NCBI RefSeq assembly: GCF_009914725.1 | Contig: NZ_JAAAWJ010000007.1 | Coordinates: 1 to 51,210, forward strand | Direction of reading: 5' to 3' | Length of the DNA: 51,210 nt | From: Methanogenium sp. MK-MG | Lineage (GTDB): Archaea > Halobacteriota > Methanomicrobia > Methanomicrobiales > Methanomicrobiaceae | Shown: one piece after another, positions 12,325 through 50,211 of the stretch | How the letters are laid out: each line of letters opens with the position of its first letter | Numbering within the stretch: the first letter of the stretch is position 1 | Made by a program: the position numbers and the translations under genes | Notes under the pieces: model-generated | The model's database searches: none | Told to the model about the DNA's origin: nothing | What the model saw: only the letters and a program-made list of their open reading frames with translations

Positions 12325-13107
12325 ATGGGAAAGAGAGACGCACTCATTGAACGCTTTGACCGCGAAACCGAGCGGATGGGAGTCCGGATACGGGATGCCG
12401 ACCAGATGAAGGTCTCCGAGAACGTCTTTGATGACATCACCCTCCTATCCCTCTACCGCCTGGTGCACAAGAAGAAGATTAAGGAGATAGGTGGCCCCAT
12501 CTCCACCGGAAAAGAGGCAAACGTCTTCTACGGCGAAGGTGAGGAGATGCCTATTGCCATCAAGATCTACCGTATCCAGTCGGCCAATTTCCGGTCGATG
12601 AGCGAGTATATTATCGGCGACCCCCGCTTCTCCTCGGTGAAAAAGTCCAAAAAGGATCTAATCTTTGCCTGGACCAAGAAGGAGTACTCCAACCTGGCCC
12701 GTGCCCGTGATGCAGGCCTCCGGGTGCCCCTCCCGATTCACTTTGACCGCAACATCCTCCTCATGGAGTTCATGGGCAAAGACGAGGTGGCCTATCCCCA
12801 GCTGCGTCTCGCCCGGCCGGATGACTATCAGGCTGTCTATGACGAGATCACAGCCGCGATGAAGACCCTCTTTAATGAGGCGGAACTCGTCCACGCCGAC
12901 CTTTCCGAGTTCAATATCCTCTGGGACGGAGAGCACCCGATCATTATCGACATCGGACAGGCAGTGACCCCCAACCACCCGAAGGCCATTGCATTCCTTG
13001 TCCGGGACATCAAGAACATCAACCGCTACTTTGCCAAACGGTGCACAATCAGAGAAGAGGAAGAACTCTTCCGTGATATCGTCGGCGAGCACCGGATGCA
13101 GATCTGA
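12325..13107 (+). CDS. rio1: RIO1-type serine kinase/ATPase
   Basis: Atypical kinase acting in late maturation of the small ribosomal subunit. Motifs: the flexible P-loop STGKEANV at 60-67, the lysine in AIKIYR (K80), the catalytic loop HADLSEFN at 190-197 and the metal-binding IIIDIGQAV (D209). Length 260 fits archaeal Rio1. In many euryarchaea rio1 lies directly beside the Dim2-type KH gene. Here the betaine-transport cassette on the other strand separates them by about 5 kb, which suggests an insertion into an older ribosome-biogenesis pair. Confidence 0.95.
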   Translation: MGKRDALIERFDRETERMGVRIRDADQMKVSENVFDDITLLSLYRLVHKKKIKEIGGPISTGKEANVFYGEGEEMPIAIKIYRIQSANFRSMSEYIIGDPRFSSVKKSKKDLIFAWTKKEYSNLARARDAGLRVPLPIHFDRNILLMEFMGKDEVAYPQLRLARPDDYQAVYDEITAAMKTLFNEAELVHADLSEFNILWDGEHPIIIDIGQAVTPNHPKAIAFLVRDIKNINRYFAKRCTIREEEELFRDIVGEHRMQI

Positions 13108-13310: not shown

Positions 13311-13653
13311 ATTTTGGGCAATACCTCGGAATCGTCAGTCAAATAGTGTTTAAATTGCACATTCTGCAGATCCTTGCCCCGGAAAAACGCATCCACACAG
13401 CAGCCCGGAGCGGGCAGATCTCCATCGAGACAACCGATACATCCTCCCAAAATATCCATCAACAGCAACCCCTTATTAGTCCGCAATAAATCGTATTTTT
13501 AGCAAATAACGGGCATTACAGCCATATTTTTCCGGCAGAAAATACTGAGCAAAAATACGCCCATTCTATCCTCCAATTCCCGAACGCAGGGAATCAAAAA
13601 GGGTGGGCAGAGGGTAAAAACAGAGAATGACAAAAAACAGGGAGGGAAGGCAG
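13311..13653 (-). repeat. Dispersed ~340-nt element, copy A
   Basis: Read on the minus strand, this stretch matches 38044-38371 on the plus strand along its whole length, with long identical blocks (for example CTGTTTTTTGTCA, CACCCTTTTTGA, CCCGCTCCGGGC, TTTTTCCGGGGCAA, TTGCCCAAAAT). A GCCCG-CTC-CGGGC hairpin is kept in both copies. One 60-codon frame (TTG start, ending LPKIM) is open here, but the other copy has a stop in it and differences fall about evenly over codon positions. I therefore favour a structured non-coding or decayed mobile element over a gene. It fills most of the gap between rio1 and the betaine-binding gene. Confidence 0.75.
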
Positions 13654-13700: not shown

Positions 13701-14579
13701 TTATCCGTTGATCCAGTAGATAACGGTGTCCTGATTTGCATCCACCCATGCCTTTGCGGCAACTTCAGGGGTTTCGCCGCCCTCGACAGCGAGCATGACA
13801 GATTCCATGTCAGCGGGCGTCCAGGAGAAGCGTTCAAGGATAGCGTATGCATCGGGATTGTCTTCCTTAAAGCCCATGCGTGCAAGACTTGCAATATACT
13901 CTTCCCCGCCGTACACACCCTGGGGGTCGTCGAGATACTTCAGGTCAAAGCGGACGAACTTCCAGTGGGGTGTCCAGCCGGTGACAACGATCCAGTCACC
14001 ATCTGCGTATGCATCAGTGAGCTGGGCAGCCATGCCGGCACTCGATGACGCCACCAACGTGTAGTCAAGACTGTAGTTTTCGATGACGGTTTCGGTCATC
14101 GCCATGATGCCTGCACCCGGCTCAATACCGGTGATTTTGCCGTCGAACTTGTCTGCAACATCGTTCATCTCATCGATTGAGTCGATGGTCACATACTGGG
14201 GAACTACGAGACCTACCTTTGCTCCCTGAAGGTTTTCGCCAACCATCACGATGTCGTCACCATAGGTGTCCCAGTAGGCGGCGTGGGTGGCGGGCATCCA
14301 TGACGAGATGCTCATGTCAACCTGCCCATCAGAAAGGCCCTGATAAAGAGGACCGACGTCAACGGCCATGAGCTCCACATCGTAGCCTGCCTGTTCATAT
14401 ACGGTCTTTAATACATTGGTACTTGCAATCTCTGAATCCCAGAGCACATAGCCGATGGAGACCTCTTTTGTGGGTTCGGTTGTTTGAGAACCGACTTCAT
14501 CCGTGCAGCCGGCAACAAAGATTACACTGAATAACACTAACAAAACAAGAAAAATACCTTTGGATTTTAAATTTAGCAC
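13701..14579 (-). CDS. opuAC: Glycine betaine/proline-betaine binding lipoprotein, copy 2
   Basis: Extracytoplasmic substrate-binding subunit for compatible-solute uptake, 292 residues. A signal segment ends in a lipobox-like VAGC (C25), so it is probably lipid-anchored outside the membrane. The body matches the OpuAC/ProX type (IGYVLWDSEIAST near the start; the repeated GIEPGAGIM and GDWIVVTGWTPHW stretches contain the aromatic residues used to cage quaternary amines). It is a tandem paralogue of the next upstream gene, most alike in the signal region where the DNA is almost identical. It has its own promoter-like leader, so it may be expressed separately. Two copies may differ in substrate or simply raise dose. 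Confidence 0.9.
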   Translation of the reverse strand: MLNLKSKGIFLVLLVLFSVIFVAGCTDEVGSQTTEPTKEVSIGYVLWDSEIASTNVLKTVYEQAGYDVELMAVDVGPLYQGLSDGQVDMSISSWMPATHAAYWDTYGDDIVMVGENLQGAKVGLVVPQYVTIDSIDEMNDVADKFDGKITGIEPGAGIMAMTETVIENYSLDYTLVASSSAGMAAQLTDAYADGDWIVVTGWTPHWKFVRFDLKYLDDPQGVYGGEEYIASLARMGFKEDNPDAYAILERFSWTPADMESVMLAVEGGETPEVAAKAWVDANQDTVIYWING

Positions 14580-36709: not shown

Positions 36710-36867
36710 GTCGCAGATCCGGTGTATGCAAATATCGCCTCATATGTCTACTCGGATTTCCGGAGTACTGGCATGACAAAACCCTGCATCTCTGTCATCG
36801 AAATCCCGCCGCTGATCGCTCCGTTACACCGGTATTTTTCGTGCAACAGACGCAACGATTCATCACA

Positions 36868-37953
36868 ATGAAGGTGAGTGAGGGCACCCGCGGTGTGCTG
36901 TATATTCTTGCAGCAGCATTCTTCTTCGGATCAGCTGCACCCCTCACCAAACTGCTCCTCACCAGTGTCGCACCGGTCACCCTTGCCTCATTGCTCTATA
37001 TGGGAAGCGGCCTTTTCTTTGCCGGATTCTGGCTTGTGCGGCGCACATTTTTTACCGCAAACCATGCCCGCGAGGCCCCGGTTGAACGGCGTGACCTGCC
37101 GTGGATGGCGGGATCTGCCCTCTTTGGTTCCGTCCTTGCCACCATTGTCCTGATGGTCTCTCTGCAGTATACCCCCGCTGCAACTGCTGCAGTCCTCCTG
37201 GGATTTGAGGCCGTCGCAACGACACTCGTTGCCACCCTCATCTTTCATGAACAGGTGGGCCGCCGGATATGGCTGGCCCTCGCCTGTATCACCGTCTCCT
37301 GTGCGGTGCTCACCTGGGACCCGGCAAGCCCGTTCGGGTTTTCCCTTGGTGCACTTGGTATCATCCTCACCTGCTTTCTCTGGGGCGCTGACACTAATAT
37401 ATCCCGCCACGTCTCGGGCAAAGACCCGATACAGCTGGTCTCTGTCAAGGGCCTCTCAGGAGGCATCACCCTCACGGCTATTGCACTCATCCTCGGGCAG
37501 CCCTACCCGGACCTGCCCCTCATTCTCGCCGGAATGGCCGTGGGCATCATCGGTTTCGGCGGGGTTATGACAATCTGTTTCCTCAGGTCTCTCCGGGTTT
37601 TGGGTGCAGCCCGGGCTGGCGCACTCTTCTCCACCAACCCGGTATTCGGGGTCATTGTCTCCCTGCTGATATTCCGTGAACTCCCGGAGGCAGGGTTTAT
37701 CATCGCATTCTTTTTTATGGGTGCAGGCACCTGGCTCCTGGTTTCAGAGAAGCACTCGCACCGCCATACCCATGACGCACTGCGCCATTCCCACCGCCAC
37801 TCGCATGACGACCTGCACCATGATGACCACATCCACGGCCCGGAGGCACCGCCGGTGGACAAAGACGGATTTCATTCCCACCCGCACTGGCACAAACCGC
37901 GGGAACACGAGCATCCCCACCGGCCCGATCTGCACCATCGGCATAAGCACTGA
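36868..37953 (+). CDS. EamA/DMT-family transporter with His-rich tail
   Basis: An approximately 361-residue membrane protein with ten helices in two EamA repeats (GSAAPLTKLLL in the first, FLWGADTNISRHV in the second), as in drug/metabolite exporters. The last 70 residues form a cytoplasmic tail packed with histidines (HSHRHTHD, HSHRHSHDD, HHDDHIHG, then HSHPHWHKP and HHRHKH), about 27 in all. Such tails bind Ni, Co or Zn. The substrate may thus be a metal or metal complex, or transport may be metal-gated. ATG at MKVSEGT is chosen; a GTG nine codons earlier is possible. Confidence 0.9.
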   Translation: MKVSEGTRGVLYILAAAFFFGSAAPLTKLLLTSVAPVTLASLLYMGSGLFFAGFWLVRRTFFTANHAREAPVERRDLPWMAGSALFGSVLATIVLMVSLQYTPAATAAVLLGFEAVATTLVATLIFHEQVGRRIWLALACITVSCAVLTWDPASPFGFSLGALGIILTCFLWGADTNISRHVSGKDPIQLVSVKGLSGGITLTAIALILGQPYPDLPLILAGMAVGIIGFGGVMTICFLRSLRVLGAARAGALFSTNPVFGVIVSLLIFRELPEAGFIIAFFFMGAGTWLLVSEKHSHRHTHDALRHSHRHSHDDLHHDDHIHGPEAPPVDKDGFHSHPHWHKPREHEHPHRPDLHHRHKH

Positions 37954-38043: not shown

Positions 38044-38371
38044 CTGCCTAACCCCTGTTTTTTGTCACCCTGTGTCCACCCTTTTTGACCCCCTGTGCTG
38101 GGGAATCGGTGGGCAGAACGGACGTATTTTCTGCTCTTTTTTACTGCCGGAAAATGACCGCTGTAATGCCTTTTATTTGCTAAAGATACGGATTATTGCG
38201 AACTACTGAGGGGTCGCTATTGACAAGTATTTTGAGAGGACGTATCGGTTGTCTCAACTGAGAACAGCCCGCTCCGGGCTTCTGTGTGGATATATTTTTC
38301 CGGGGCAAAGATCCGCAGGATGTGTTATTTAAGCACAATTTAGCACCCGATGCCGAGATTTTGCCCAAAAT
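38044..38371 (+). repeat. Dispersed ~330-nt element, copy B
   Basis: Plus-strand copy of the element also present, inverted, at 13311-13653. The same order of conserved blocks is seen: CCCTGTTTTTTGTCA, CACCCTTTTTGA, TGCCGGAAAA, GCTGTAATGCC, ATTTGCTAAA, GTATCGGTTGTCTC, CCCGCTCCGGGC, TTTTTCCGGGGCAAAGATC and TTGCCCAAAAT. The AGCCCG-CTC-CGGGCT hairpin is kept. The frame open in copy A has an in-frame TGA here. It occupies the gap between the EamA gene and the response regulator, so both copies lie in intergenic space. Confidence 0.75.
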
Positions 38372-38563
38372 GACGAGGATCGTATACCACGGCTGCAGGA
38401 GTGAGCAAACAGCATGTCCGGTGCCCATCACCCGGAAGAATAACATGAATTCCGTGGTTGAGAAACGGAAGATGAGTATAATCAATAAGGCAGCAAAGAA
38501 TGAGCGGAATCACTATTCTGCCGGTGTCTCCGGCAACCGATTCAAAAAAAATCGCCAGTGAAC

Positions 38564-38947
38564 CTACCCGGTGCGGATCTTCTCTTCTGCCGCTTCCAGT
38601 GTATTTTTCAGTTCCACCTCACGAAGCGGTTTCACGATGTAGCCCAGCGGGTCCATATCCAGTGCCCGGGACCGCATCTTCATATCCGAGTAGGCGGTGA
38701 TGAATATAACCGGCACCGCAAGTGTGTCCCTGAGCATCCGGGCCGCCTCAATACCGTCCACCTCTCCCCTCAGACGGATGTCCATGAGTGCGATGTCAGG
38801 ACTTGTAGCGGAGGCGATATCCAATGCCTCTGCTGCGGTATCTGCAACACCGCATACCTCATACCCGAGCTTCTTTACCCGGTGCTCAATATCCATGCCG
38901 ATGATCGCATCGTCTTCAACAACCAGTATCCGCAGGTGTTTCCCCAT
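38564..38947 (-). CDS. Stand-alone response regulator receiver
   Basis: A 127-residue single receiver domain with no output domain. The acidic pocket EDD lies at 11-13, the phospho-acceptor is D56 in ALMDIRL, Thr is seen in FITAYSD, and Lys in YIVKPL. The C-terminal helix stops right after the fold. It starts one base after the stop of the upstream histidine kinase, so the two form an operon and probably a phospho-relay. With no DNA-binding part, output must come by protein contact or by phosphate buffering. This is notable because the kinase itself carries a helix-turn-helix. Confidence 0.93.
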   Translation of the reverse strand: MGKHLRILVVEDDAIIGMDIEHRVKKLGYEVCGVADTAAEALDIASATSPDIALMDIRLRGEVDGIEAARMLRDTLAVPVIFITAYSDMKMRSRALDMDPLGYIVKPLREVELKNTLEAAEEKIRTG

Positions 38948-48364: not shown

Positions 48365-48868
48365 CTAAAATGAAAATGGAAGGCGTTCTCCCTCTTTCCT
48401 GTCGTAGAGTATTCTCCCGTTCTCCTTGTAGGTCTTCATCACAATGATCGTGGCAGTCTCACGAATCTGCTCCATCGGCGCGATCTGTTCTGAGACAAAA
48501 CGGGTGATATCCTGGATATTCCTCCCGGTAACACGGAGTTCAAAATCGTATTCTCCGCTGATGAGGCGCAGGGAACAGACCTGTGGGAACCGGGCGATGC
48601 GCTCGGCGATACGGTCGTAGCCGACGTCACGTTCAGGAGTTATTTTAAGATTCACGGTCGCCGCTGCCACTCCTTCGCCTGCCTTCTCCCAGTCTACACT
48701 CGCGCAGTAGCCTCGGATGATCCTGTCATTTTCCATGACACAGACACGGTCTTTAACCTCAGCCTCACTCAGGTCTGTGAGGTCAGCCACCACACTCGTC
48801 TCCTGTGTGCTGTCTTCTTCGAGAATGCGAAGGAGCAGCCAGTCTTTGGCGTCCATGATTTTATTCAC
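48365..48868 (-). CDS. Lrp/AsnC-family transcriptional regulator
   Basis: A 167-residue regulator: an N-terminal winged HTH (about 5-55; SEAEVKDRVCVMENDRII) joined to a RAM ligand-binding domain (about 70-145; AATVNLKIT, RFPQVCSLRLISGEYDFELRV) that usually binds amino acids. A GTG start overlaps the cdc6 stop by four bases (GTGA); an ATG four codons on is possible. It is sandwiched between cdc6 and the aminotransferase in one minus-strand run, and so would be co-expressed with the replication initiator. Confidence 0.9.
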   Translation of the reverse strand: MNKIMDAKDWLLLRILEEDSTQETSVVADLTDLSEAEVKDRVCVMENDRIIRGYCASVDWEKAGEGVAAATVNLKITPERDVGYDRIAERIARFPQVCSLRLISGEYDFELRVTGRNIQDITRFVSEQIAPMEQIRETATIIVMKTYKENGRILYDRKEGERLPFSF

Positions 48869-50211
48869 CGGAATAATGTTTTATATCGAGATATATCAAT
48901 CTGATTCAGCCGCTCGTCTGAAAACCGGCCTTCCTGCTGAAGGGTCTCGAGGATCTTCTTTGTTCCGGCACCAAACCACATCTCTTTTGTCCGTCCATAG
49001 CGCCCGCGCGAAACGAGGCGTGCCTTGATGACACCGAGCATGTCGAGTTCTGATATGAGGTCAGTGATACGCCGGTGGGTGAGAACATCAAGGTCAAGCG
49101 CCAGGGCGACGTCGCGGTAGACCTGAACCACTTCTCCGGAAGTGAAGACCTGTTTGTTCATTTCTGGAAAGAGCAGCATTGCATAGAGGACAGCCTTTGA
49201 CTGAGATGGCAGTGTCTTGACGCATTCAATGAGGCTGTCGGCTTCAATCTTATTGCGGGCCTCACGTACATGTTTTTCAGTGACCATCTCAGCATTCTTG
49301 CGTTCTGTGAGTTCACCGGAGACCCGCAGGAGATCCAGTGCCCGGCGGGCATCGCCATGTTCCTGGGCGGCGAGGGCCGCACAGAGCGGGATCACGCCCT
49401 CATCAAGAACACCTTCATTGAACGCATAATCAGCACGCTGCTGAAGAATATCCACAAGCTGCGGCGCATTATATGGTGGGAAGACAATCTCCTCTTCTGA
49501 AAGGGACGAGAGTACCCGGTGATCCAGATAACTGGTAAAGAGCAGATCGTTGGAGATGCCCACGATGCAGACCTTCGCATTTTTCAGTTCAGAATTGATG
49601 CGCGAGAGGTTGTAGAGAGTTTCGTCACCTGATTTTTTGACCAGTTTGTCGATCTCGTCAAGTACGACGATATGGACTCCACCGATTGCCTCGATGAGGT
49701 TTTTGAGTTCCGTATATACCTGGTCAGTCGGCCACCCGGTCATCGGGATGATGGAACGCGGGCGATCAGACGAGCGCCCTTCATCGTCTTCGAGAAGCGT
49801 TGCTATCTGTGCAAAGACCCGGTACTGGGTATCGATGATCTCACAGTTGAGATGCACGACATTGCACTCCACCCCCACCGAGCCACAGGCCTTCTCCAGT
49901 TCTGCACCAACATAACGGACAGAGGCCGTCTTTCCGGTTCCGGTCTTCCCGTAAATCAGGATATTTGAGGGTGTCTCATTCCGGATGGACGGTGCGAGGA
50001 TGGATGCTATCGTATCCATCTGCTCTTTCCGGTGCGGCAGTATCTGTGGACGGTACGAGTGCCTGAGCACCTCCCTGTTTTTGAAGATCGATCGGTCTTT
50101 AAGATATTTCTGAAAAAGCCCTATTGAAGAATTCTGTTCCTCTTCAGATGGGTCCCCTTCCTCTGGACGGTCTTCATATATATGATTGGGTGTGTCACCT
50201 TCATCCCCCAT
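48865..50211 (-). CDS. cdc6: Orc1/Cdc6 replication initiator
   Basis: Archaeal origin-binding AAA+ ATPase of 448 residues that loads MCM. Walker A GKTGTGKT is at 88-95, Walker B LDEID at 184-188, sensor-1 ISN in CIVGISND, and an arginine-rich sensor-2 DARRALDLLR. A winged-helix domain follows (about 350-448; VYRDVALALDLDVLTHRRITDLI) that binds ORB sites. The first 45 residues are acidic and disordered. A perfect GGAGGTGA lies nine bases before the ATG. The gene borders the AT-rich region with ORB-like sites, as in other archaeal origins. Confidence 0.97.
   Translation of the reverse strand: MGDEGDTPNHIYEDRPEEGDPSEEEQNSSIGLFQKYLKDRSIFKNREVLRHSYRPQILPHRKEQMDTIASILAPSIRNETPSNILIYGKTGTGKTASVRYVGAELEKACGSVGVECNVVHLNCEIIDTQYRVFAQIATLLEDDEGRSSDRPRSIIPMTGWPTDQVYTELKNLIEAIGGVHIVVLDEIDKLVKKSGDETLYNLSRINSELKNAKVCIVGISNDLLFTSYLDHRVLSSLSEEEIVFPPYNAPQLVDILQQRADYAFNEGVLDEGVIPLCAALAAQEHGDARRALDLLRVSGELTERKNAEMVTEKHVREARNKIEADSLIECVKTLPSQSKAVLYAMLLFPEMNKQVFTSGEVVQVYRDVALALDLDVLTHRRITDLISELDMLGVIKARLVSRGRYGRTKEMWFGAGTKKILETLQQEGRFSDERLNQIDISRYKTLFR

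Follow-up and report, generated by a model that had tools for sequence, protein, structure and literature searches.

An intergenic repeat of Methanogenium sp. MK-MG, present twice in the 51,210-nt stretch analysed here (the window; contig NZ_JAAAWJ010000007.1), is a member of a previously undescribed element with an order-wide distribution in the Methanomicrobiales and almost nothing beyond; our literature searches turned up no description of it. Its copies are numerous, have a promoter-like anatomy, encode no protein, contain no covarying base pairs and are under selection where they reside. We consider the chances about even that each copy is an independently promoted, largely unstructured non-coding RNA gene, one of a multicopy set under selection.

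The sequence-only reading of the window had described two inverted copies, and both are real: positions 13,311–13,623 aligned with 38,055–38,371 in inverted orientation at 79% identity (E = 8e-73). Copy 1, on the forward strand, spans 13,311–13,653 in the sequence-only reading. Its conserved body (positions 2–238 of profile model R1, see below) lies at 13,378–13,614 (E = 3.1e-60), and its TATA-like box TGTTTAAATT, recognised by sequence and a position rule, occupies 13,347–13,356, 49 nt before the CACAG at 13,396–13,400. Copy 2, on the reverse strand, has its body at 38,068–38,304 (the same model positions, E = 1.0e-61), a TATA-like box TGCTTAAATA, found in the same way, at 38,326–38,335, and an upstream block at 38,340–38,450 with 13 matches in the genome, mostly directly 5' of an element body. 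The upstream block also occurred at C98:6076–6158 and C139:3578–3638 of the host genome (G000), with no element body there among the matches listed.

Convergent genes with unrelated products flank both window copies. Copy 1 lies between genes for a RIO-domain kinase (12,325–13,107, forward; PF01163, E = 1.7e-56) and an OpuAC substrate-binding protein (13,701–14,579, reverse; PF04069, E = 2.9e-72), and copy 2 between genes for an EamA-family transporter (36,841–37,953, forward; PF00892, E = 6e-30) and a response regulator (38,564–38,947, reverse; PF00072, E = 9.6e-22). In M. marinum, the site orthologous to copy 1 is occupied by two tandem units and the site orthologous to copy 2 is empty. Both flanking neighbourhoods (L001 and L002) share their relative orientation with that species, which lends no support to the earlier suggestion that the copies could drive inversion of the 25-kb segment between them. 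The window also includes an Orc1/Cdc6 gene (48,865–50,211, reverse). Since an Orc1/Cdc6 homologue coincides with a sign change of the GC/TA skew in genomes G002 and G003, the window is probably near a replication origin.

The number and spread of the copies were assessed with a DNA query and two profile models. In the host genome (2.19 Mb, 146 contigs), the DNA query gave 43 matches at E < 1e-34, plus four weak ones. The same query detected copies in six of 60 genomes, namely the host and five of the six other Methanogenium, and matched none of the 53 genomes outside the genus. Public contigs matching the pattern were likewise all from Methanogenium (M. cariaci, M. marinum and MAG CSMAG_280). 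The sequence-only model R1, built on an alignment of 58 copies (A2), raised the count to 60 in the host genome and found 60 copies in G001, 66 in G005, 42 in G003, 24 in G002 and 11 in G006, with none in Methanogenium G004, whose assembly is incomplete. The family is larger than the earlier reading suggested.

Model R1 matched 17 of the 28 genomes of the host's family. A second model, R2, built on an alignment spanning genera (A3), matched 50 of 150 genomes of the order (E ≤ 1e-3), with 24 copies each in G008 and G014, 42 in G123 and 22 in G093. Across the phylum, 11 of 196 genomes matched, the sole one outside Methanomicrobiales by a partial match (E = 9e-4). Membership is secure in families f1 and f4 and less secure in f3, f5 and f6, where the matches are isolated and either weak or partial. 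In f5, copy L216 is convincing as a member; weak R2 matches in f5 covering the A/T-rich middle only (e.g., in G041) were probably due to chance and were not counted. The arrangement of copies was locally conspicuous in two genomes. Five copies of the same orientation are spaced 2–4 kb apart at G123:C7:137,762–148,931, as if alternating with a gene cluster, and 19 of the 24 copies on G008:C1 (2.84 Mb) fall within 1.12–2.18 Mb, in the half that lies across from its cdc6 gene (1.4 kb).

When copies were anchored on the near-invariant CACAG, a common layout appeared: an upstream block, the TATA-like box, a weakly conserved spacer of ~20 nt, and a strongly conserved body of ~235 nt. The sense strand of the body is rich in A and C (59%). 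It showed no depletion of T-runs, and no terminator was recognised, both of which count against a non-coding RNA gene. Conservation runs ~100 nt further upstream of the box in about ten copies. The box favours positions 48 and 49 nt before CACAG. The usual archaeal distance from TATA box to start site would place transcription initiation about where conservation of the element starts; with the box at this fixed place, conservation thus begins about where transcription should start. Some copies form arrays of two to four head-to-tail units, 200–280 nt apart.

We scored the boxes with a matrix of 19 other-genus boxes against a cut-off at the 95th percentile of random M. marinum sites, omitting profile matches that begin after model position 40. 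The cut-off was exceeded in 39 of 66 single Methanogenium copies, in four of six first array units and in none of 11 inner units. With single copies and first units combined, 43 of 72 scored above it, against 13 of 72 in an opposite-strand control beyond the 3' end. Promoters of tRNA genes were of no use as a yardstick because no shared extended box was seen in the 33 genes compared. Most other-genus copies have a textbook-like box (e.g., AAGTAAAGCTTAAATA) at the same distance from CACAG; five g6 copies in alignment A3 and L132 have none. The five g6 copies and the 27 of 66 single copies with poor scores, all without a good TATA box, count against the non-coding RNA gene interpretation.

A small protein gene or its remnant is a very improbable explanation of the element. 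Short open frames do occur occasionally on either strand, with stop-free runs of at least 60 codons in 16 of 58 sense and 11 of 58 antisense sequences. Against this, the longest stop-free runs of the 58 A2 copies equalled those of shuffled sequences, stop codons recurred at fixed alignment columns, conservation across the 58 copies showed no three-base periodicity, and single-base frameshifting gaps fell in the middle of the element. The window copies share no long open frame, and the earlier judgement that the element does not encode a protein holds. A conserved reverse frame, apparent in a few other-genus copies, was rejected, since the invariance of the CACAG block extends to all three codon positions.

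The element had also been proposed to be a structured non-coding RNA or a dispersed element with a conserved GCCCG/CGGGC hairpin. This was the right place to look, and the hairpin arms are present in both window copies, within GCCCGGAGCGGGC at 13,403–13,415 (forward) and 38,267–38,279 (reverse); conserved structure is the part that failed. In a pairing-versus-shuffle test, 85.9% of the cells of the two arms paired, compared with 85.0% after shuffling, so this potential hairpin is no better than shuffled sequence, and it has no covariation support. Sequence conservation by itself may account for a hairpin shared by two repeat copies. No convincing pair emerged when 58 copies were put through a tree-aware covariation test, and the covariance analysis suggested earlier, rerun with 82 copies and 11.9 changes per column, yielded no pairs at E ≤ 0.5. 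The control of 22 M. marinum tRNAs, with 4.7 changes per column, returned 13 pairs, of which the ten leading ones pair in all sequences. RNAalifold predicted no pairs on the cross-genus alignment, and no Rfam 15 family matched. What speaks for a classical structured RNA is a weak single-sequence folding signal: for the 25 copies folded out of 58, the sense strand had a mean z of −1.4. Given that covarying pairs are absent, that identity is largely refuted, and we find it scarcely credible. By the same token, an RNA made from the element would be recognised by its sequence. Conservation across genera without a covarying pair is unusual for a non-coding RNA and counts against our preferred reading. 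In a search for base-pairing partners, the first 1.6 Mb of M. marinum, apart from the element itself, contained no exact match to any consensus 15-mer on either strand.

To estimate the persistence of the copies, we compared 55 copy-bearing loci with the main contig of M. marinum, of which 81.6% was covered. Fifteen sites were occupied, eight were empty and 32 had no two-sided match, the species not being close; one copy was entered twice among these loci (L036, L095), and the 'empty' state of L013 rests on a 4.2-kb gap. Orientation was kept at 14 of the 15 occupied sites. Constraint was measured by classing columns solely by their conservation in other genera and then scoring them in orthologous Methanogenium pairs. 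Over eight pairs, differences affected 49 of 407 conserved columns (12.0%) versus 171 of 646 variable columns (26.5%; p = 1e-8): the copies have been under selection at their sites ever since the species diverged. The eight were pooled from 13 examined pairs, the other five each sharing a copy with another pair. Two of those omitted, both involving L050, oppose the trend (0.35 vs. 0.29 and 0.31 vs. 0.24), which indicates that some copies have decayed. Gene conversion among copies could partly mimic the constraint signal. Within the genus, copies are not homogenised by genome: similarity inside a genome is no higher than between species, and the copies of G002 and G006 resemble independent descendants of one master sequence.

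These patterns bear on whether the element is mobile. A non-autonomous SINE- or MITE-like element would have an internal or carried promoter, its sequence would be held by a mobilising enzyme encoded elsewhere, and the promoter would either make the mobilised RNA or be a by-product. MITEs and non-autonomous insertion sequences are, like our element, dispersed, intergenic, non-coding and variable in number. The swings from 0 to 66 copies per genome favour some form of spreading, and the coexistence of tandem and dispersed copies, the master-derived look of G002 and G006, the lack of closer similarity within genomes and the eight empty sites among 23 comparable ones in M. marinum all suit mobility. 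The signatures of insertion did not appear, however. No inverted repeats of at least 10 bases, terminal or otherwise, surround either window copy, and the compared sites showed neither a clean empty site nor a target-site duplication, with flanks mostly too diverged. At least five empty-site comparisons were aligned and gave ragged junctions; at the cleanest among those listed (L090), the right junction falls at the TATA box, with no duplication. The occupancy of 15 of the 23 comparable sites, long-term orthologous positions and selection on resident copies likewise separate the element from MITEs, and the earlier description of it as MITE-like or decayed is weakened accordingly. Searches of phages, plasmids and viral contigs gave no match, and an origin from any of these was dropped. 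Overall, we regard mobility as unlikely, although well ahead of the protein and structured-RNA explanations.

A further alternative places the function in the DNA itself: arrayed protein-binding sites would keep convergent genes apart or insulated, or would serve to organise or mark the chromosome, with the TATA-like box forming part of a binding site. Conservation of primary sequence without RNA structure fits this proposal, and so does the genomic context. Of 24 element loci in M. marinum, 10 lay in convergent-gene gaps, compared with 52 of 305 other gaps of at least 300 nt (p = 0.006), and one of 24 lay in divergent-gene gaps, compared with 79 of 305. This test used gene calls made in this analysis and took 31 of the copies listed for G003, leaving aside the region 1.6–2.0 Mb, a single C1 copy and the matches that were weak or partial. 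In two genomes taken together, the element was also oriented head-on to replication at 35 of 52 loci (p = 0.018; genes, 698 of 1531), with replication direction taken from a skew-defined origin adjoining cdc6. This excess is modest, and a role as replication-strand marker was dropped on that ground. Bacterial REP/BIME-type repeats similarly occur in many copies between convergent genes. The element differs from them in being longer, in having no conserved palindrome and in carrying a promoter-like box at fixed spacing. The promoter-type spacing between box and body, with loss of the box in inner units only, suits transcription better than protein binding, and such variation in copy number within one genus would be odd for a chromosome-wide structural site. 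We therefore hold a DNA-level function to be improbable, to about the same degree as mobility.

Another repeat of the same archaea invites comparison. Chashchina et al. (2021; PMC8044849) describe repetitive potential G-quadruplex sequences (rPQS) in Methanomicrobiaceae, with many intergenic copies, about half of them between tail-to-tail genes. The two repeats thus share archaeal group, intergenic location, high copy number and the tail-to-tail habit. Their sequences differ, and two of 74 rPQS in two g3 genomes lie within ~150 nt of an element copy. The host genome has 60 element copies versus three rPQS (GGGNGGGN3–5GGGAGGG), with no rPQS on the window's contig. Three g3 copies and one f4 copy hinted that the rPQS might be the element's own 3' hairpin, an idea dropped after counting. 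The 74 rPQS sites of G008 and G014, mostly GGGAGGG-N5-GGGAGGG, constitute a separate repeat in the same genomes. At L053, L048 and L109 of M. cariaci (G001), G/C runs exceed those in the orthologous DNA of other species, even within genes. The long runs look like assembly errors, and these may explain the ~100 GnNiGn repeats reported for that genome in PMC8044849.

Taken together, the fixed promoter spacing, the loss of promoters in inner units only, the non-coding sequence and the selection favour non-coding RNA genes. The excess of copies between convergent genes and the A/C-richness of the body also speak for them. Under this interpretation, initiation would occur ~25–30 nt downstream of the TATA promoter, shortly ahead of the invariant CACAG. 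The transcript would carry the A/C-rich body and would not depend on a conserved fold; a tandem array would draw on a single promoter for as many as four body units. The RNA itself and its 3' end are inferred. It would most probably work in trans, with its conserved sequence blocks binding a protein or RNA partner, and the many gene copies would provide a high dose of it. Multicopy small regulatory RNA genes, including those for protein-sponging RNAs, offer a parallel: several to many genes per RNA, each with its own promoter, sometimes in tandem. The element resembles them in its many copies, its putative promoters and its tandem units. It departs from them in its far larger number of copies, in having no conserved fold and no known partner, and in the presumptive nature of its transcription.

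With up to 66 copies per 2-Mb genome, the element is among the commonest non-coding features of these methanogens, and it has no Rfam family. More tentatively, and at somewhat less than an even chance, it may represent a new archaeal RNA class, in which dozens of self-promoted genes per cell produce an unstructured, A/C-rich RNA that is conserved order-wide in sequence only and has a common partner in trans. The cultured species M. marinum and M. cariaci make the question of transcription directly testable. If transcribed, the element would be an abundant RNA beyond the reach of fold-based discovery methods, which miss it because covariation is absent.
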